21,440 bases of DNA from a virus. Numbering within the stretch: the stretch's first letter is position 1; each line of letters begins with the position of its first letter. Positions 6,323 to 19,608 of the stretch are shown here, one piece after another. A program made the translations under genes and the position numbers. The stretch lies in IMG/VR virus record IMGVR_UViG_3300045996_003115, positions 1-21,440 of that record; one strand, 5' to 3'. The notes under the pieces were generated by a model. The model made no database searches and was not told the DNA's origin. It saw only the letters and a program-made list of their open reading frames with translations.

Positions 6323-7300
6323 GTGCCGAACACGTTTCTGAAGCCGTCGGTGATCGCTCGCGCGACCGTCGGCCTGCTGTACCGGGAGCTCACGGTTGCG
6401 CGCACCGTGTGGTCCGACGCGATCGACCCGGGTGAATTCACCGGTGCTCTCGACGACACCGTTTCGATGCGGGTCCCGGCCCGCCGGGTCGCCCGTAAGC
6501 GCACGCTGCGCGCCGGCACGGCGATCGTGAACGACACGTCGACCGAATTCAGCGTGCCGGTCAAGCTGGACACGGACGTCTACAACGGCGCACCGATCAC
6601 CGACGAAGAGCTCACGCTCGATATCACGGACTTCTCCACGCAGGTCCTCTCGCCGCAGGTGCGCGCCGTGGTCGAGGGTGTCGACGAAGAGGTGATCGAC
6701 GAGATCGAGAACGCCGATTACGGCTCGATGGTCGTCGACCCGACCGACGCCGACTTCGTCGTGTCCGGCGAGACTGACTGGTACTTCGCGGCGCTGCGGG
6801 CGCGCAAGATGCTCAACAACAACCACGTGCCGCAGGAGGGTCGCACCCTGCTCATCGGTACCGACATCGAAGAGCAGATCATGCGGTCGGACCGCTTCGT
6901 GCGCTTCGACTCGCGCGGCCCGGGTGCCGAGACCGCCCTCGAAGGCGCGACCATCGGCCGGATCGCCGGCTTCGACGTCGTGCTCTCGACCGAGGTCGAG
7001 GACGACGCCGCGTACGCCTACCACCGGACGGCTTTCGTCGTGGCCACCCGGGCGCCGCTCGTCCCCCGCGGAGCGTCCATGGCGCAGATCCGCTCGGCGA
7101 GCGTCGGCATGGGTGCGTCGCAGTTCTACAACGGCCTCTCGGTCCGCTGGCTCATGGACTACGACTACACGAACACCACCGACCGCTCGCTCGTCAACAC
7201 GTGGGTCGGCACCGCGACCGTCGAGGAGCCGGACGACGCGCAGAACCCCGCCAGCACGAAGTCCCTGAAGCGGGCCGTCGCGATCCGTTCGGGTTCCTAA
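6323..7300 (+). CDS. Major capsid protein, P22-coat-like HK97 fold
   Basis: 325 residues starting at GTG 6323, with AAGGA at 6311-6315 seven bases upstream. The start MPNTFLKPSVIARATVGLL and the following segment about VP.RRVARKRTLR, VPVKLDTDVYNGAPITDEEL and ALRARKMLNNNHVP are typical of the P22 coat-like family widespread in actinophages. It has no long N-terminal delta domain; the separate scaffold upstream does that job. It is shorter than P22 coat itself (about 430), so it may have a reduced insertion domain. It is followed by the strongest hairpin in the window (7306-7342), which could protect or end a capsid-rich transcript. Confidence 0.9.
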   Translation: MPNTFLKPSVIARATVGLLYRELTVARTVWSDAIDPGEFTGALDDTVSMRVPARRVARKRTLRAGTAIVNDTSTEFSVPVKLDTDVYNGAPITDEELTLDITDFSTQVLSPQVRAVVEGVDEEVIDEIENADYGSMVVDPTDADFVVSGETDWYFAALRARKMLNNNHVPQEGRTLLIGTDIEEQIMRSDRFVRFDSRGPGAETALEGATIGRIAGFDVVLSTEVEDDAAYAYHRTAFVVATRAPLVPRGASMAQIRSASVGMGASQFYNGLSVRWLMDYDYTNTTDRSLVNTWVGTATVEEPDDAQNPASTKSLKRAVAIRSGS

Positions 7301-7305
7301 TCGGA

Positions 7306-7342
7306 ACGGCCCGCTGCTGCTTGAAAGGCGGCAGCGGGCCGT
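7306..7342 (+). terminator. Strong stem-loop after the major capsid gene
   Basis: A 15-bp stem (7306-7320 with 7328-7342) containing a single G.T wobble closes a seven-base loop (ttgaaag). It starts six bases after the capsid stop. No T-run follows, which is common in actinobacterial terminators, so it may act as a partial terminator, a processing site or an mRNA-stabilising structure. The next gene starts 24 bases later on the same strand. Confidence 0.7.
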
Positions 7343-7366
7343 GATTCGGCCGGGAAGGGGCGGATC

Positions 7367-7714
7367 GTGGCATTCAACAACAACGGGCTGAACGCAGCGG
7401 TGAACGGCATCGCGGCGGCCGGCACGTACATCTCGGCGCACACCGCCGACCCGGGCAGCACGGGCACGAGCGAGGTGGCCGGCGGGTCGTACGCCCGGCA
7501 GCAGACGACATGGGGCACGGCCGCGGCCGGCGAGCGGGTCGGTTCGCAGGTGGCGATCCCGATCCCGGCCGGCACGACGGTCACGCATTGGGGCGTCTGG
7601 TCGGCCGTCTCCGGCGGGACGTTCCTCGGTGGTTTTCAGCTCTCTGCGCCGGAAACTTTCGGCTCGGCCGGTACGCAGAACCACACGCCGACGCTCGACG
7701 CCAACGCGAGCTGA
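7367..7714 (+). CDS. Small head/tail-fiber-like decoration protein
   Basis: 115 residues from GTG 7367, with GGGAAGGGG at 7352-7360 six bases upstream. The sequence begins MAFNNNGLNAAVNGIAAAGTYISAHTADPG, then GGSYARQQTTWG, IPAGTTVTHWGVWS and GGTFLGGFQLS. This beta-rich pattern (start of type LN..LNG, HTADPG, YARQ...WG) is one I recognise from a small protein family in actinophages and Streptomyces prophages variously annotated as tail fiber or head fiber. Its position straight after the major capsid protein and before the connector favours a capsid-surface or head-fiber role over a tail role. No catalytic motif is visible. Confidence 0.65.
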   Translation: MAFNNNGLNAAVNGIAAAGTYISAHTADPGSTGTSEVAGGSYARQQTTWGTAAAGERVGSQVAIPIPAGTTVTHWGVWSAVSGGTFLGGFQLSAPETFGSAGTQNHTPTLDANAS

Positions 7715-7723
7715 GTCGGGCCG

Positions 7724-8650
7724 ATGCCACAATCGCTGTTCACCTCACAGACGCCGGCCAGTCCGGACCTCGCCGATGGCTCCGCGGCGTACTCGATGGG
7801 GACGTATTTCACGTCTTCGGTGAACGGCACCGTCACGCATATCCGCTGGTACTTCCCGCTCTCCGCGCAGCCGAGCGGGGTCGTCGGCGGGCAGGCGATC
7901 AAGGGCAACCTGTTCCGTAACAGCGACTCGCTCAAGCTCGGCGGGGTCGATGCCGTGTTCGCGTCGCCGGGTACGCCCGGCGCGTGGAATCAGGTGGCTC
8001 TCTCGACGCCGGTCGCGATCACTGCCGGCACTCTGTACTGCGCCACGATTTGGACGCCCCGTCGCTATGTCGCCAGTGTTGGCGGGGCGTCTCCGTGGCC
8101 GGTCTCAAACGGCAACCTGGCGGCGCTTACCGGCGCCGGCCGCTTCACCGACGGCAGTAGCGGCAACGTCGAGTTTCCGACGTCGAGCTTCAACAACGGG
8201 TGCTACTTCGCCGATGTCGTCTTCGTGGCGGATGGTGAAGAGGAGGAAGTCGACACGACCGGTACCGGTGCCGTCTCGGTCACGGCCTCGGCGGTCGTGT
8301 CGACGCAGCGGACGTCTTCCGGGCTTGCTGTGGCCGGGCTCGCCGCCTCGGCGGCCGTGTCGACGCTGCGAGTCACGGAGGGCGTAGCCGCGGCCGGCCT
8401 CAGCGCCTCAGCAGCGGTCGCAACCACGCGACTCACCGCCGGGTCCGCACCGGTCGCTGTTGGCGCTCGTGCGGCCGCCTCGTCGGCCCGCACGACGGTA
8501 GGGACCGGCCGGGTCGTCGTCACGGGTGGCACGTATGCGCCACTGATCGGAGCGGCGCCGCTGCTGATCACGCAGTCGCAGCCGGATCGTCTGGAGACGA
8601 TCGACACGGCGGCCGGCCGTATCGTCACGACAACGGTCATGGCGCGATAG
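7724..8650 (+). CDS. DUF4082-domain protein with four 20-residue repeats; putative capsid-surface fiber
   Basis: 308 residues. Residues 1 to about 168 match what I know of DUF4082: SLFTSQTPASPDLADG, the G.YFTSSVNGTVTHIRWY strand pair, W.QVALSTPVAITAGTLY and PTSSFNNGCYFADVVF at the end. DUF4082 is a beta-sandwich seen in secreted, often carbohydrate-associated bacterial proteins. A short acidic hinge (EEEEVD) leads to four tandem 20-residue repeats at about 186-265, with Arg at 196, 216, 236, 256 and Gly at 200, 220, 240, 260. The C-terminal 40 residues form a short separate cap. The RBS is weak; ATG 7724 follows the previous stop by nine bases. Its place between capsid and connector genes suggests a head-decorating fiber, which is inference. 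Confidence 0.72.
   Translation: MPQSLFTSQTPASPDLADGSAAYSMGTYFTSSVNGTVTHIRWYFPLSAQPSGVVGGQAIKGNLFRNSDSLKLGGVDAVFASPGTPGAWNQVALSTPVAITAGTLYCATIWTPRRYVASVGGASPWPVSNGNLAALTGAGRFTDGSSGNVEFPTSSFNNGCYFADVVFVADGEEEEVDTTGTGAVSVTASAVVSTQRTSSGLAVAGLAASAAVSTLRVTEGVAAAGLSASAAVATTRLTAGSAPVAVGARAAASSARTTVGTGRVVVTGGTYAPLIGAAPLLITQSQPDRLETIDTAAGRIVTTTVMAR
8279..8518 (+). repeat. Four tandem 60-bp coding repeats
   Basis: Four in-frame units of exactly 60 bases within the DUF4082 gene. Copies one and two are closest: bases 8285-8310 match 8345-8370 at 24 of 26 positions. Copies three and four have diverged but keep the Arg-x3-Gly register. The repeat encodes Ala/Val/Ser/Thr-rich strands. Confidence 0.8.
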
Positions 8651-8662
8651 GGGAGACGGACG

Positions 8663-9367
8663 ATGCGGCGATACGACCCGGGAGACACGGCGACCTTGCG
8701 TCACGTCGTGCGCGACGCCGATGGCGAGCTCACGGCGGCGACCGTCGCGCTCTCCGTGACGCCTAAGGGTGGCTCGACGATCACGCCGGTCATCAGTAAT
8801 CCGTCGGTCGGTGTGTACGACGGCGCCGTGCCCGATCTCGACCCCGGGCTGTACGACTACGTGTGGACGGTCAGCGGCACGGTCGCCGACGTCGCCGACG
8901 GGCAGTTCTATGTTGCGACCGACGAGGACCACCTACCGCCACTGGCGTCCTTCGCCCGGCTCGCCGCGAAGATCGGCTACGAGCCGCAGGAGACCGAGCG
9001 CGATCGCGCCGAAGAGCTGCTCGATCAGGCCAGTGAGCTCGTGCGCGCCACCGCGGGCAAGACGTGGACCGATGAGGCGACCGGCGTCGTATCCGACGTC
9101 CCCCGGCGCGTCCGGGCGATCGTCATCGACGTCGCGTACCGCGCCTTCACCAACCCTGAGGGGCTCTCTCAGCGCTCGATCGGCGACTCGTCGAAGTCAT
9201 GGGATCGTGCCGGCCGCGAGGGCGGGCAGATCGTCTACCTGACTGACGACGAGCGCCGGGCGGTCCGCGCGGCCGGCGGGTCGTCGTCGATGATCGTCGC
9301 CACGCTCGTATCGCCGTACAGCGGCGATGCCGGCGGCGACGCGTGGGCGGAGGTGACGCTGGAGTGA
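8663..9367 (+). CDS. Head-tail connector (adaptor) with extra N-terminal Ig-like domain
   Basis: 234 residues from ATG 8663, with GGGGAGA at 8650-8656. The part after residue 97 (LASFARLAAKIGYEP...ERAEELLDQASELVRATAGKTWTDE...VPRRVRAIVIDVAYRAFTNPEGLSQRSIGD...) is a helical bundle typical of HK97 gp6/SPP1 gp15-like connectors, which bind under the portal. Residues 1-92 are different: strand-rich with YDPGDTATLRHVVRDADG, VGVYDGAV and PGLYDYVWTVSG, like an Ig/beta-sandwich. Such a domain is not part of the minimal connector and may project from the neck. It ends with a GTGA overlap to the next gene. Confidence 0.8.
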   Translation: MRRYDPGDTATLRHVVRDADGELTAATVALSVTPKGGSTITPVISNPSVGVYDGAVPDLDPGLYDYVWTVSGTVADVADGQFYVATDEDHLPPLASFARLAAKIGYEPQETERDRAEELLDQASELVRATAGKTWTDEATGVVSDVPRRVRAIVIDVAYRAFTNPEGLSQRSIGDSSKSWDRAGREGGQIVYLTDDERRAVRAAGGSSSMIVATLVSPYSGDAGGDAWAEVTLE

Positions 9368-9711
9368 CGACACCGATCGGCTATCACGAGCTGCCTGAGA
9401 CCCTCGGCGTCTGGCGCAACGTCTCCACCACCGACCCTTGGGGCGGCAGTACGACCGAGCGGCAGCAGGTCGGTGAGGTGCGCGCGAAAGTGTCGCAGCC
9501 GGCCGCGGCCGAGCAGATCGAGGCGCAGCAGGCCGGCTCCACGATGACGATGATCGTTCACATGCGGCCCGATGCCGACGTGCGCCGCGGTGACGAGCTG
9601 CGGCGCGATGACGGCGACATGCTCCGCGTGAAGTACACGATCGCGCCGAGCGAGCCGGCATACCTGCGTGCCGACTGCGAGCTCGTACAGAGCGAAGGCG
9701 ACCCGCCGTGA
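9364..9711 (+). CDS. Head-tail stopper/adaptor, SPP1 gp16-like
   Basis: 115 residues from GTG 9364, overlapping the connector stop by four bases; GGAGG at 9349-9353 is a good RBS. The pattern of strands (VEVRAKVSQ-like opening, TMTMIVHMRPDADVRRGDELRRDDGDMLRVKYT, AYLRADCELVQ) fits the small beta-barrel head-tail joining or stopper family: a repeated measure of a property, a 'rGDeL...dGd.l.V' turn and a closing strand. It would plug the DNA channel and form the tail docking surface. Order after the connector supports this. It is followed, unusually, by a glycosyltransferase gene rather than by the next tail gene. Confidence 0.75.
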   Translation: MTTPIGYHELPETLGVWRNVSTTDPWGGSTTERQQVGEVRAKVSQPAAAEQIEAQQAGSTMTMIVHMRPDADVRRGDELRRDDGDMLRVKYTIAPSEPAYLRADCELVQSEGDPP

Positions 9712-10370
9712 GCGCGCCGACATGGGCGATCCTGATCCCGACGATCGGGCAACGCGAGCAGCTCTTCGAGCGCCTGCTCGATGTGCTGCTACCGCAGCTC
9801 GACGCGTATAGCGGTCGGGTGCGGGTCGTCGCGTGGCGCAACGACGGATCTCCCCGGATCGCCGAGCTGCGCGACATCATGATCAACACTGTCGACGCCG
9901 ATTACGTGAGCTTCATTGACGACGACGATCTCGTGTCGCACCGGTACGTCAAGGCGATCGCCGACGCGCTCGAAGAGCGACCGGATCACGTCGGCTTCAA
10001 GCTCGAATACTGCGTCGATGGTGAACCGAGAGAGATCGTTGATCACTCGCTGCGGCATCACCGCTGGCACCGCAACGCCGACGGGATACTCGTTCGCGAC
10101 TTCACGCACGTCGATCCGGTGCGTCGCGATCACGCGACCCGTGGGCGTTTCGCAGCCGCGAAGAGCGGCCGAGCCGAAGATCGCGCATGGGTCAAGCAGG
10201 TACGCCCGTTCCTGCACTCCGAGGCGTACATCGACGAAGTGCTGTACCGGTACCTCTGGTCGCCGGCCATGTCGTCATGGCAGCGCCCGGAGCGGCTCAT
10301 CCCGACCGGCCGACCCCGACCGAAGATCGATTACCCGCACTTCGCATGGCACGAGCGGTCGGACGCGTGA
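9708..10370 (+). CDS. GT-A fold glycosyltransferase (GT2-like)
   Basis: 220 residues from GTG 9708, overlapping the stopper stop (GTGA), with GAAGG at 9694-9698. The opening ILIPTIGQREQLFERLLDVLLPQL is the first beta strand and helix of a GT2-type nucleotide-sugar binding fold. Residues 44-48 (RNDGS) and the acidic run at 71-74 (FIDDDDLVS) match the NDGS and DxD elements that hold the sugar-nucleotide phosphate and metal. A C-terminal acceptor region is His/Arg/Trp-rich. No signal peptide or membrane segment is seen, so it acts in the cytoplasm on a soluble acceptor, perhaps a virion protein. The substrate and sugar are unknown. The next gene, a methyltransferase, overlaps by one base, suggesting a shared pathway. 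Confidence 0.82.
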   Translation: MSAPTWAILIPTIGQREQLFERLLDVLLPQLDAYSGRVRVVAWRNDGSPRIAELRDIMINTVDADYVSFIDDDDLVSHRYVKAIADALEERPDHVGFKLEYCVDGEPREIVDHSLRHHRWHRNADGILVRDFTHVDPVRRDHATRGRFAAAKSGRAEDRAWVKQVRPFLHSEAYIDEVLYRYLWSPAMSSWQRPERLIPTGRPRPKIDYPHFAWHERSDA

Positions 10371-11002
10371 TGCGGACAATCGATGATTTTCGCTGGTCGT
10401 TCCGTCTGTTCCCGGATGCGATGTCCGAGCTTCGCGTCCGGCCCGACGCGCTGCTGCACGTCGGTGCGCACCATGGGCAAGAGGTTCCGCAGTACCTGGC
10501 GGCCGGCTTCCAGCGGATCACGCTGGTGGAGCCGGATCCCGAGAACTGCGCGGTCATCGCCAGTCAGCCATGGATCGACGCGGCGAATATCGGGATCGTC
10601 GCGAAGGCCTGCGGCTCGAAGCCCGGCCGCGCAACCTTCCACCGCACCGATGACACTGCTTTTTCTGGTTTGCAGCGCGACATTCGCATGAGTGACGCGG
10701 CCTCGTTCCCCGTTGATGTTGTGCGCATAGCCGATATCCAGGTCGAGGCGCGCGCCAATGTGCTCGTCGTCGACACGCAGGGAACCGAGCTCGACGCGCT
10801 CGCCTCCGCGGACCTCGATCCGCTCGACCTGATCATCGTCGAGGCGCAGGATTCCCACCGTGGGGCACCCGGCGCCTACCTTCCCGACCTGCTCGCATGG
10901 TGCCGATCGATCGGGTGGCTGCCGCGGATACAGTGGCGACGCGATGCGCACTGGGCAGACACGCTGCTTACGCCGCGCCGAGCTCTGGAGAACTTGCCAT
11001 GA
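10370..11002 (+). CDS. FkbM-family SAM-dependent methyltransferase
   Basis: 210 residues from ATG 10370 (TGATG overlap; GTG 10367 is an alternative). Residues 28-34 (LLHVGAH) and HGQE after it form the glycine-rich SAM-binding motif I; Glu54 (LVEPDP) is the acid expected to hold the ribose hydroxyls. The second conserved block is 132-143 (LVVDTQGTELDA), the FkbM signature, then DLIIVEAQ. FkbM enzymes O-methylate sugars or polyketides. Placed between two glycosyltransferase-like genes, it most likely methylates a sugar being added by them, which is inference. A frame extending upstream to 10187 is shadow coding of the glycosyltransferase gene. Confidence 0.85.
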   Translation: MRTIDDFRWSFRLFPDAMSELRVRPDALLHVGAHHGQEVPQYLAAGFQRITLVEPDPENCAVIASQPWIDAANIGIVAKACGSKPGRATFHRTDDTAFSGLQRDIRMSDAASFPVDVVRIADIQVEARANVLVVDTQGTELDALASADLDPLDLIIVEAQDSHRGAPGAYLPDLLAWCRSIGWLPRIQWRRDAHWADTLLTPRRALENLP

Positions 11003-11736
11003 AGCCGCTCCTGATGATCGTTCCGACCCGTAGCCGGCCGGGCAACGTCCGGCGGGTCGTCACGGCCTGGCTTGAAACGGGCGGATTCGACGACGCCGAT
11101 CTGATCTTCGCGATCGACTTCGACGACCCGGAGCACGACGCGTATCTCGACGAGCTGCAAGCCGCGGCCCGGACGGTCGCCGAGCACGGCGCCACGATCG
11201 CCTGCCACTCCTCGCCGCGGCACGAGCCGCTCGTGCCGAAGCTGAACGCCGTCGCCAAGCTGCACGCCGAGATCGAGCCGGACCGGTTCGCGCTGGGCTT
11301 CGCGGGCGACGACCATCTGCCGCGTACAGCCGGATGGGCGAAGGCCTTCGTCGAGCACCTTCGCGGCGCCGGTACGGGCATCGTGTACGGCGACGACCTG
11401 TACAAAGGTCACGAGCTCGCGTCGTCGTGGGCGATGACCGCTGACATCGTGCGGGCGCTCCGGCGGATGGTCCCGGCGCCGGTCGACCACTTGTACTGCG
11501 ACAACTCGATCATGGATCTCGGCGCCGCGCTCGACCGGCTCGCGTACCTGCCCGGCGTCGTCATCGAGCACGTGCATCCGGTCGCCGGCAAGGGCGCCAC
11601 CGACGAGCAGTACGAGCGCGTCAACGGCCGTGAGCAGTATCGTCGGGACCGTCCGGCGTATAAGCGGTGGAAGCGTGACGGCGGACTTCGCGACGATGCC
11701 GCCCGCGTGCGGGCGTACATGGAAGGTGTCCGATGA
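10999..11736 (+). CDS. Second glycosyltransferase-like protein (GT-A fold)
   Basis: 245 residues from ATG 10999, overlapping the methyltransferase end by four bases, with GGAG at 10987-10990. The start LLMIVPTRSRPGNVRRVVTAW resembles a GT-A nucleotide-binding strand-helix. Acidic pairs occur at FAIDFDDPEHDAY (about 37-48), FAGDDHLP (101-108) and YGDDLYKG (130-137); GDD at 103-105 fits a DxD-type metal site. EHVHP near 195 may be the catalytic-side His cluster common in GT2 proteins. It resembles small phage and prophage glycosyltransferase-like proteins. Activity cannot be shown from sequence; it may be an accessory to the upstream enzyme. It completes the coupled GT-FkbM-GT cassette. Confidence 0.75.
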   Translation: MKPLLMIVPTRSRPGNVRRVVTAWLETGGFDDADLIFAIDFDDPEHDAYLDELQAAARTVAEHGATIACHSSPRHEPLVPKLNAVAKLHAEIEPDRFALGFAGDDHLPRTAGWAKAFVEHLRGAGTGIVYGDDLYKGHELASSWAMTADIVRALRRMVPAPVDHLYCDNSIMDLGAALDRLAYLPGVVIEHVHPVAGKGATDEQYERVNGREQYRRDRPAYKRWKRDGGLRDDAARVRAYMEGVR

Positions 11737-12287
11737 CTCAGATCATGGTCGCGCAGCGAAGCGGCATCCTGCGCGCGCCCGACGGAAAGCAGTACCGGTT
11801 GGTCCGCGGGCAGACGCTCGCCGACGGCCGTCACCCGGCCGTCACTGGCTCGCCGGCCTCCTGGCGACCGATGCACGTCGAGCTTGCAGTCGACGATTCG
11901 GCCGATTGCCCGCCCGACGGCTTCGATCAGAGCGATCAGATCGCTGAGCTCGAAGAGACCGCCGAGCAGTACCGCTCGGCGCTTCAAGCCGTCGCCGACC
12001 TGCTCGACGAGCGCGGCCTGCTGGCCGGCGTCGACCGCGAGCAGGAGGGGTGGCTGCTCGACCGGCTCGGCGAGCTGCTGCCGCCCGGCGACCCGGCCGA
12101 CGTTGCTCCGGTGCCGGCCGCGCCGAAGCCGCCGCACGCGCCTGCGGCACAACTCGCAGACCCGGAGACCTCGGAGGGCCGCGCCGCGATCCGTGAGTGG
12201 GCCTGGTCGCACGGGCAGAACGTCTCGGAGCGCGGGCAGCTACCGAAGGCCGTCATCGACGCGTACCGGGCCGCTCATGGCGGGTAG
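11733..12287 (+). CDS. Lsr2-like C-terminal DNA-binding domain protein with coiled coil
   Basis: 184 residues from ATG 11733 (ATGA overlap; GGAAGG at 11721-11726). Three parts are visible. Residues 5-51 are a small beta domain (YRLVRGQTLADGRHPAV...WRPMHVEL). Residues about 66-116 are a leucine-rich heptad-type helix that could dimerise. A Pro/Ala linker follows (119-142). Residues 150-182 (RAAIREWAWSHG..VSERGQLPKAVIDAYRAAH) match the Lsr2 C-terminal DNA-binding domain, where the usual RGR minor-groove motif reads RGQ (167-169). Lsr2 is the actinobacterial xenogeneic silencer. Here it sits between head and tail genes, so it could bind packaged DNA, antagonise host Lsr2, or regulate late genes. 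None of these is proved. Confidence 0.78.
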   Translation: MTQIMVAQRSGILRAPDGKQYRLVRGQTLADGRHPAVTGSPASWRPMHVELAVDDSADCPPDGFDQSDQIAELEETAEQYRSALQAVADLLDERGLLAGVDREQEGWLLDRLGELLPPGDPADVAPVPAAPKPPHAPAAQLADPETSEGRAAIREWAWSHGQNVSERGQLPKAVIDAYRAAHGG

Positions 12288-12651
12288 AGCGAAGGTCACG
12301 GTCTCCGGGCTCGACGAGCTCGATAAGCGGCTCGCCGAGCTGCCGAGGGTCGTCGAGCGCGGAGCGTTGCGCGCTGTCCGGGTGGAGACGCATGACGTCG
12401 CCGACGACATGCGCGCCAATGCTCCTGTGCTGACCGGGGAGCTGCGGCAGGGCATTCAGGAAGAGGTCGACACGAAGGCGATCGAGGGTCGCGCCGTGTC
12501 GACCGCGAGGCACACGACCTTCGTCATCCACGGGACGTCCGACACCCCCGCGGACGACTTCATGGAGCCGGCCGCGCAGCGGTCGCGGGCGCGGTTCCCC
12601 AAGCGAGCGCAGGCCGAGGTACTCAAAGAGCTCGGAAAGGTCACCGGATGA
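12277..12651 (+). CDS. HK97 gp10-like tail/neck component
   Basis: 124 residues from ATG 12277, overlapping the Lsr2-like gene end by eleven bases. The helical opening (GLDELDKRLAELPRVVERGALRAVR), then DVADDMRANAPVLTGELRQGIQ, is the classic HK97-gp10-like pattern (APVLTG.LR..I). The C-terminal part FVIHGTSDTPADDFMEPAAQRSRARF also fits. Members join the tail to the head or help complete the tail. The longer open frame back to 11884 is shadow. The adjacent terminator gene confirms the neck-tail context. Confidence 0.85.
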   Translation: MAGRAKVTVSGLDELDKRLAELPRVVERGALRAVRVETHDVADDMRANAPVLTGELRQGIQEEVDTKAIEGRAVSTARHTTFVIHGTSDTPADDFMEPAAQRSRARFPKRAQAEVLKELGKVTG

Positions 12652-13133: not shown

Positions 13134-13571
13134 ATGTCCGGCCGCGATGCATTCGGCACACAGTTCCAGCGCGCGACCGGCGTCGCGCCCGGCACGACCT
13201 ACGAGACGATCGCGAACGTCACGAGCATCGGGGGGCCGGAGCGGACCCGCGAGACGATCGACGTCACTTCGCACGATTCCCCCGATGGGTGGATGGAGTT
13301 CATCGGCGGTCTCAAGGACGGCGGCGAGATCTCGCTCGACGTCAATTACGACCCGGCGGAGACCACCCACGATCTCGACGACGATTTCGATGACGTTTTG
13401 CCGCGTAACTACCGGATCGTGCTGCTGCCCGACACCGACGACGAGCACACGTGGCAGATCTCCGGAATCCTCACGCAGCTCGGCGACGAATTCCCCTACG
13501 ACGACAAGATGGCGCGGACCATGACGATCAAGGTCACGGGTAAGCCGACGCTCGCGCCGTCGGGCAGCTAA
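13134..13571 (+). CDS. Major tail tube protein
   Basis: 145 residues from ATG 13134 with AGGGAG at 13123-13128. The motifs are those of phage tail tube proteins with a beta-sandwich: ANVTSIGGPERTRETIDVTSHDSPDGWMEFIGGLKDGGEISLDVNYDP, then YRIVLLPDTDDEHTWQISGILTQLGDEFPYDDKMARTMTIKVTGKP. The 'dvTshdspdgw.efi.GlkdgGei' block is diagnostic. It polymerises as stacked hexamers around the tape measure protein. There is no C-terminal Ig domain. It is followed by a 40-base gap holding only the RBS of the chaperone gene. Confidence 0.9.
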   Translation: MSGRDAFGTQFQRATGVAPGTTYETIANVTSIGGPERTRETIDVTSHDSPDGWMEFIGGLKDGGEISLDVNYDPAETTHDLDDDFDDVLPRNYRIVLLPDTDDEHTWQISGILTQLGDEFPYDDKMARTMTIKVTGKPTLAPSGS

Positions 13572-18921: not shown

Positions 18922-19608
18922 ATGGTAGGCGTACCCGGCGAGCCGGTAGACCCGGAGGATTTCGCGAATCCGATCTTCGAGACGATCGAGCTCGATCCGC
19001 CCGAGAGCGCTACGGCTCTCGCCGTTCAGTTCAATCATGCGTATTCGTTCTATGTCGATAACGCTGGCTCGGGCGGGAACAACACCCGTTTCTGGCTCGA
19101 AGGTCCGGACGGCGGCGAAGCTGTCATCGGTCCACGAGCGTCCGGCTCGCAATTCGGCAGCATTCGTCTTCGCACCTCAGCGACGACCGCCAGTGCCGCA
19201 ACCTGCAATATCGATACCAGCGGCGTTATCCGACGGAGCACTTCGTCGCGGAAGTACAAAACCGACATCCAGCCGCACGACATCGATCTCGACGCACTGC
19301 GTTCGCTTCCGGTCGTGACGTTCCTCTCGCTGCCCGAGATCGCCGAGCAGCAGCGTTGGCGGGCCGCGGTCGAGGCCGGCGACGAGGCGATGATCGGTGT
19401 TCCCGAGCCACGACCGCGCCGGTACGTCGGCATGATCGCCGAGGACATGCACGACGCTGGGCTGCACGAGTTCGTCGCGTATCACGACGAGACCGGCGAG
19501 CCGGACGGCATCATGTACGACCGCATCGTGCTCGGCGCACTCCAGATGATCACGAAGCTCGAAGAGCGCGTGCAGCAGCTCGAAGCGCAGCTCGCCGAGA
19601 AAGGGTAG
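18922..19608 (+). CDS. Short tail fiber with C-terminal S74 self-cleaving chaperone domain
   Basis: 228 residues from ATG 18922, with AAGGGGAGAG at 18906-18915. Residues 1-105 form a short beta-rich fiber shaft. The conserved S74 (intramolecular chaperone auto-processing) domain begins at 106: STSSRKYKTDI, with Ser108 and Lys113 in the S-x4-K spacing of the Ser/Lys dyad known from MYRF and phage endosialidases. RRYVGMIAEDM (166-176) and IMYDRIVLGALQMI (197-210) are the other two S74 signatures. A trimeric coiled coil closes the protein (LEERVQQLEAQL). After trimer folding the chaperone would be cut off at about residue 108. It lies immediately downstream of the tip protein. Confidence 0.85.
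   Translation: MVGVPGEPVDPEDFANPIFETIELDPPESATALAVQFNHAYSFYVDNAGSGGNNTRFWLEGPDGGEAVIGPRASGSQFGSIRLRTSATTASAATCNIDTSGVIRRSTSSRKYKTDIQPHDIDLDALRSLPVVTFLSLPEIAEQQRWRAAVEAGDEAMIGVPEPRPRRYVGMIAEDMHDAGLHEFVAYHDETGEPDGIMYDRIVLGALQMITKLEERVQQLEAQLAEKG

Follow-up and report, generated by a model that had tools for sequence, protein, structure and literature searches.

The cassette within the head-tail operon

The window, meaning the whole stretch of DNA analyzed, is a viral contig of 21,440 bases, from a soil phage, that carries an actinophage-like head-tail operon. The order of genes is terminase, portal, MuF-like protein, scaffold, P22-type capsid, two probable head proteins, Ad1, Hc1, GT1-FkbM-GT2, Lsr2-like protein, neck, terminator, tail tube and tape measure, several of the identities being from position and conservation only. 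The genes whose coordinates follow are all on the plus strand. Head closure Hc1 (9364-9711; phrog_25) forms the upstream border of the cassette. It is followed by GT1, a GT-A glycosyltransferase (9708-10370), an FkbM-type SAM methyltransferase (10370-11002), and GT2, a glycosyltransferase of GT-A fold (10999-11736). The downstream border is a gene for a protein with a C-terminal Lsr2 DNA-binding domain (11733-12287), beyond which lies the HK97 gp10-like neck/tail completion gene (12277-12651), the right-hand anchor of the synteny census below; both were recognized by family match. Upstream and downstream are the genes of the major capsid protein (6323-7300) and of the major tail (tube) protein (13134-13571), the latter identified by its place in the operon and its conservation among relatives.

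The cassette is tied to its neighbors by overlaps. Hc1 ends at 9711, past the GTG start of GT1 at 9708 (GTGA), GT1 and FkbM share TGATG at 10370, where the stop of the former runs into the ATG of the latter, and ATGA overlaps join FkbM to GT2 at 10999 and GT2 to the Lsr2-like gene at 11733. The first-pass annotation had described a three-gene block between the stopper (head closure) and the Lsr2-like and tail genes, with joints GTGA, TGATG and ATGA; sequence and open reading frames bear out the arrangement and every joint. The Lsr2-domain gene precedes the neck gene in most relatives, as here, and in one relative (L048; contigs are cited by L numbers) the gene directly 3' of the capsid gene appears by eye to have a similar C-terminal sequence. 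The capsid-to-adaptor interval (7301-8662) is highly variable: it contains gp80 and DUF4082 genes in the window, several kb of largely unrecognized sequence in L007, L008, and L036, and almost nothing in L006, L009, and L019. Farther downstream (18922-19608), a short protein of 228 residues has an end that resembles, by eye, the self-cleaving intramolecular chaperone of tail spikes.

GT1 matches the glycosyltransferase family PHROG 14775 (E 1.2e-44), and scores 22.4 bits against PF00535 (Glycos_transf_2), just below the cut-off of 23.3. GT2 matches PHROG 2675 (E 1.4e-77) and PHROG 14945 (E 5.7e-32); it matched no glycosyltransferase model of Pfam, PF00535 included, and a sequence search against solved structures gave no match. 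PHROGs name both proteins as glycosyltransferases. AlphaFold2 models, built from 51 relatives of GT1 and 62 of GT2, have pLDDT values of 94.8 and 97.2, respectively. The structural search that had been suggested for both enzymes returned the GT-A fold for each, with Z of 16.8 to 6p61 for GT1 (164 residues, 2.8 A) and 17.4 to 6yv7 for GT2 (210 residues, 3.3 A), and the matches to GT-A enzymes span most of the length of either protein. Because many structural rows tie in both searches, the fold does not point to any one donor or acceptor.

The residues expected of such enzymes are in place. The DDDD motif of GT1 (D71-D74) is invariant in 51/51 sequences. In GT2, which has the acidic motifs D40xDD and GDDH (103-106), D40, D43, and D105 are invariant in 62/62 and D104 and H106 are kept in at least 90%. 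FkbM matches PF05050 over residues 30-179 (42.4 bits, cut-off 22.7); its SAM residues (the GxHxGxE motif, E54, and DxQGxE) are intact, and G32/H34/G36/E38/E54 and D135/Q137/G138/E140 are invariant in 15 relatives. Loss of DxD or SAM residues, raised earlier as a concern, is thus not seen in the alignments (n = 51 for GT1, 62 for GT2, and 15 for FkbM). All three genes alike are under purifying selection, with approximate dN/dS (Nei-Gojobori) of about 0.2-0.5; comparison with L007 gives about 0.3 for GT1 and 0.5 for GT2, and FkbM is at about 0.25 when compared with L019 and L041. By hydropathy, none of the proteins has a membrane helix, the largest 19-residue means being 0.74 (GT1), 1.25 (FkbM), and 1.30 (GT2); on this point the initial claim of enzymes lacking a membrane segment holds.

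The glycosyltransferase pair and its methyltransferase partners

Relatives of the window were fetched through the capsid gene alone, so there was no selection for the cassette. GT1 and GT2 lie between Hc1 and the neck gene in all capsid-found contigs that cover that interval (21/21), and in 25/25 once contigs found through GT2 are added. The methyltransferase is less constant. FkbM is 5' of GT1 in L022, L024, L050, L051, and L088, and between GT1 and GT2 in the window and L032; in L044 and L089 an enzyme of the rhamnosyl O-methyltransferase/CmcI family (RMNT_CmcI) is found between the two glycosyltransferases, and L041 has both kinds. Since a recognized methyltransferase is absent from 12 of the 21 capsid-found contigs, methylation is optional. 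On the capsid tree, the presence of FkbM requires six changes by parsimony, at least four of them on supported branches, and this repeated gain and loss rules out FkbM as a fixed member. The locus had been pictured as a three-gene cassette; what emerges instead is a core pair of glycosyltransferases. Among all viral contigs, 42 of 80 GT2 genes have a methyltransferase within 1.5 kb (a raw count), and the kinds near the GT2 genes are FkbM (14), RMNT_CmcI (9), and Methyltransf_24 (21).

The same activities also occur fused. GT1 and GT2 form a single ORF in L050, L051, L052, and L088; GT2 and a methyltransferase do so in phiAsp2 and about twenty contigs; and GT1, GT2, and a methyltransferase are together in single ORFs of 770-797 residues in L143, L145, and L159. 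Such fusions argue strongly that the three activities belong to a single pathway. Additional genes are found around the pair in some relatives. In L014 a gene on the opposite strand (7157-7918, minus) is located between GT1 and GT2, with similar genes in L022 and L024. In a sister clade, two extra GT-like genes come after the fused GT1-GT2, with FkbM in front (L050:5095-6521, L051:9680-11123, L088:9616-11496).

C-terminal serines of the capsid and tail-tube proteins

The capsid protein of the window ends in RSGS (codons 7286-7297) and the tail-tube protein in PSGS (codons 13557-13568), both therefore in -SGS. In relatives with both glycosyltransferases, the capsid ends in [GN]S in 19/23 and SS in 4/23, and the tail tube in GS in 25/28 and SSL in 3/28. 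The sister clade of L050, L051, and L088 has SS on the capsid and SSL, not GS, on the tail tube. The 172 other structural proteins inspected, those of the adaptor, head closure, neck, terminator, portal, tape measure, gp80, and DUF4082, include not one with a [GN]S end. Because S or T is a frequent last residue of the terminator, a Ser/Thr end alone is not special. Mycobacteriophage glycans are reported to be carried on the C-termini of the capsid and tail-tube proteins (PMC12619734, citing Freeman 2023).

Other phages were inspected for Ser ends only after the pattern had been noticed. Capsid and tail protein both end in Ser in the GT-bearing phages Dylan, Fryberger, Poise, phiGD23-1, Neville, ShakeNBake, Forza, and mEp390. 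In D29, TM4, Bxb1, Giles, phiC31, R4, lambda, and L048, not both proteins are Ser-ended (in lambda, V alone is), and no match to PHROG 854 or PF00535 was found in these phages, D29, TM4, and others having been searched with limited families. Two phages do not fit. In phiAsp2 glycosyltransferases are present, the capsid ends in CCP, and the annotated tail protein ends in SS. In HK97 no glycosyltransferase was found, yet the capsid ends in SGS and the tail protein in IS, so the Ser tail is not exclusive to GT phages. The capsid of Sauce, and the capsid and tail genes of Jada, were not identified in the stretches examined. Over the 18 comparison phages, both ends are Ser in 8/9 phages with glycosyltransferases vs. 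1/9 without (Fisher p 0.003), and in actinophages only, in 7/8 vs. 0/7 (p 0.0014); since the phages are few and partly related (D29 and Bxb1 are kin, and mEp390 shares the capsid type of HK97), the association is a lead and not a proof. As such a lead, paired Ser ends appear to track the glycan enzymes in most phages examined, phiAsp2 and HK97 being the exceptions. The best natural control for the Ser tail is L048, a 50 kb contig with a capsid 61% identical, in which no glycosyltransferase was found and the two proteins end in GPGV and LDET (the tail protein assigned by position). Many distant capsid relatives (L056, L059-L061, L063-L079) end in an apparent Ig-like (BIG2-type) domain and have no Gly-Ser tail; no match to GT2 or PF00535 was found in L060, L063, L067, L069, L070, L072, and L079.

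The best candidates for the acceptor thus appear to be the C-termini of the capsid and tail-tube proteins. It is unlikely, if the best of the alternatives, that the virion is glycosylated instead on another structural protein, such as gp80, the DUF4082 head protein, or a tail fiber. Such an acceptor would accord with the possible surface proteins contained in the capsid-adaptor interval and, outside the lineage of the window, with cassettes that adjoin tail-region genes (phiAsp2, ShakeNBake). However, gp80 and DUF4082 proteins have no Ser tail, and L006, L009, and L019 keep both glycosyltransferases with no recognized copy of either gene. Neither protein is therefore needed as acceptor, including the DUF4082 protein, which the first-pass annotation had listed beside the capsid and tail tube as a possible carrier.

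Studied cassettes and the proposed role

GT1 has a homolog in the N-terminal half of Che8 gp108, with 31% across 190 residues (E 7e-19); the Che8 protein then runs on into a TylF/Methyltransf_24 domain and is followed by gp109 and gp110. Capsid glycosylation is reported to require the glycosyltransferases gp110 in Che8 and gp38 in Corndog (PMC12363180, citing Freeman 2023), and for cluster O the capsid and tail-tube proteins are the reported targets of the cassette enzymes (PMC11600133). Because these cassettes are reported to act on the virion, the idea of a virion glycan at the present locus has direct precedent. In Che8, a GT1-type domain is joined to a methyltransferase and, as in the window, the capsid and tail proteins have Ser ends (TGS and DGS). 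Unlike the window cassette, which is in the structural operon, gp108-110 are at the right end of the genome, and the PHROG scan found no member of the GT2 family among them. The Corndogvirus Dylan likewise has a methyltransferase and tandem glycosyltransferases within the head operon (O-MT-GT-GT-GT, gp32-35), and its capsid and tail subunit end in VGS and GDS. However, its cassette is between portal and protease rather than stopper and neck, its methyltransferase is of TylF rather than FkbM type, and its glycosyltransferases belong to other families, including PHROG 854, with no match to PHROG 14775.

Two other actinophages share different parts of the cassette. In the Actinoplanes phage phiAsp2 (pas33-pas34-pas35), homologs of GT1 (47%) and GT2 (50%) are side by side with a methyltransferase. 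Here, unlike in the window, GT2 is fused to Methyltransf_24, a third glycosyltransferase (pas35) belongs to PHROG 854, the family of Che8 gp110, the cassette is placed after the tail genes, and the capsid has no Ser end. GenBank and PHROG 2675 call pas34 (L003:9001-10791) a DNA methyltransferase; the label is wrong, as its domains are a GT-A domain fused to Methyltransf_24. In the Streptomyces phage ShakeNBake (gp31-33), an FkbM homolog (38%) is in an overlapping cassette with a glycosyltransferase, and the capsid and tail protein end in LS and AGS. That cassette is downstream of the tail genes, and the partners of FkbM are a Glyco_trans_1_2-type glycosyltransferase and a weak NTP-transferase match, not GT1 and GT2.

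The window shares two traits with the Che8/Corndog type, glycosyltransferases clustered with an O-methyltransferase-like gene and, through GT1 and Che8 gp108, homology to a glycosyltransferase of a studied cassette. A PHROG 854 glycosyltransferase was not found in ten scanned window genes or in nine long relatives, and for this reason the cassette is classed as a variant. By analogy, it probably resembles the Che8/Corndog cassette but without its PHROG 854 enzyme, and with another glycosyltransferase pair, place in the operon, and methyltransferase.

Modification of the host cell wall is a quite improbable explanation. The glycosyltransferases and FkbM would then decorate a wall polymer, as the prophage glycosyltransferase TarP does teichoic acid, and alter receptors for other phages. 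TarP and TarS are indeed among the best structural matches of GT1 (Z 16.2 and 16.0; the top row, at 16.8, ties with them). Since TarP is a soluble enzyme that acts on teichoic acid, the lack of a membrane helix does not by itself rule out a wall-polymer acceptor; the earlier argument from that lack to a cytoplasmic acceptor stands as to the helix and fails as to the exclusion of the wall. However, a TarP/TarS-like fold is common to many GT-A enzymes, every relative has the genes inside its late head-tail operon, a location ill suited to lysogenic conversion, and the closest cassettes that have been studied work on the virion (PMC11600133, PMC12363180). DNA hypermodification, in which the enzymes would glycosylate modified phage bases against restriction, is very improbable: DNA-glycosylating phage glycosyltransferases are known (cited in PMC12619734) and public annotation gives the DNA methyltransferase label to the GT2-bearing protein of phiAsp2 and its PHROG, but that label is mistaken, the late operon position fits poorly, and a thymidylate-synthase-family gene (PF00303), which would serve a hydroxymethylated base and so covers one base chemistry, was found in none of 11 relatives (nine near 40 kb, phiAsp2 whole).

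We consider it likely, with good confidence, that the cassette is a virion-glycosylation module in which GT1 and GT2 glycosylate, FkbM O-methylates, and the capsid and tail tube most likely receive the glycan on their terminal serines. The cassette would be made late, together with the head and tail genes. The two soluble GT-A enzymes would add sugars in turn to phage structural proteins in the cytoplasm, most likely to the terminal Ser of the capsid (...RSGS) and of the tail tube (...PSGS), and FkbM would O-methylate a sugar of that chain, perhaps capping it as the first-pass annotation had suggested. In this scheme we infer enzyme activity, sugar, order of addition, acceptor, methylation, and purpose alike. 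The modification may shield the particle or tune adsorption. In a free-living soil setting, shielding from antibodies, as reported in mycobacteriophages, cannot have been the original reason; adsorption, particle stability, and protease protection are guesses. The first-pass annotation had proposed a methylated glycan on virion proteins assembled in the cytoplasm, and fixed synteny, fusions, and homology to Che8/Corndog-type cassettes support that core, with the DUF4082 protein dropped as a needed acceptor and the two C-termini put first.

If so, probable virion glycosylation reaches beyond the cultured mycobacteriophages, into an uncultured lineage that is actinophage-like. In the lineage of the window, the glycosyltransferases belong to the head-tail operon as fixed members and the methyltransferase is swappable. 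The same Ser tail on two unrelated particle-building proteins offers a concrete acceptor: the -SGS observed here on capsid and tail tube matches the C-terminal glycan sites reported in PMC12619734. The tail would also allow a sequence-based test of which phages have modified coats and of where the modification lies.
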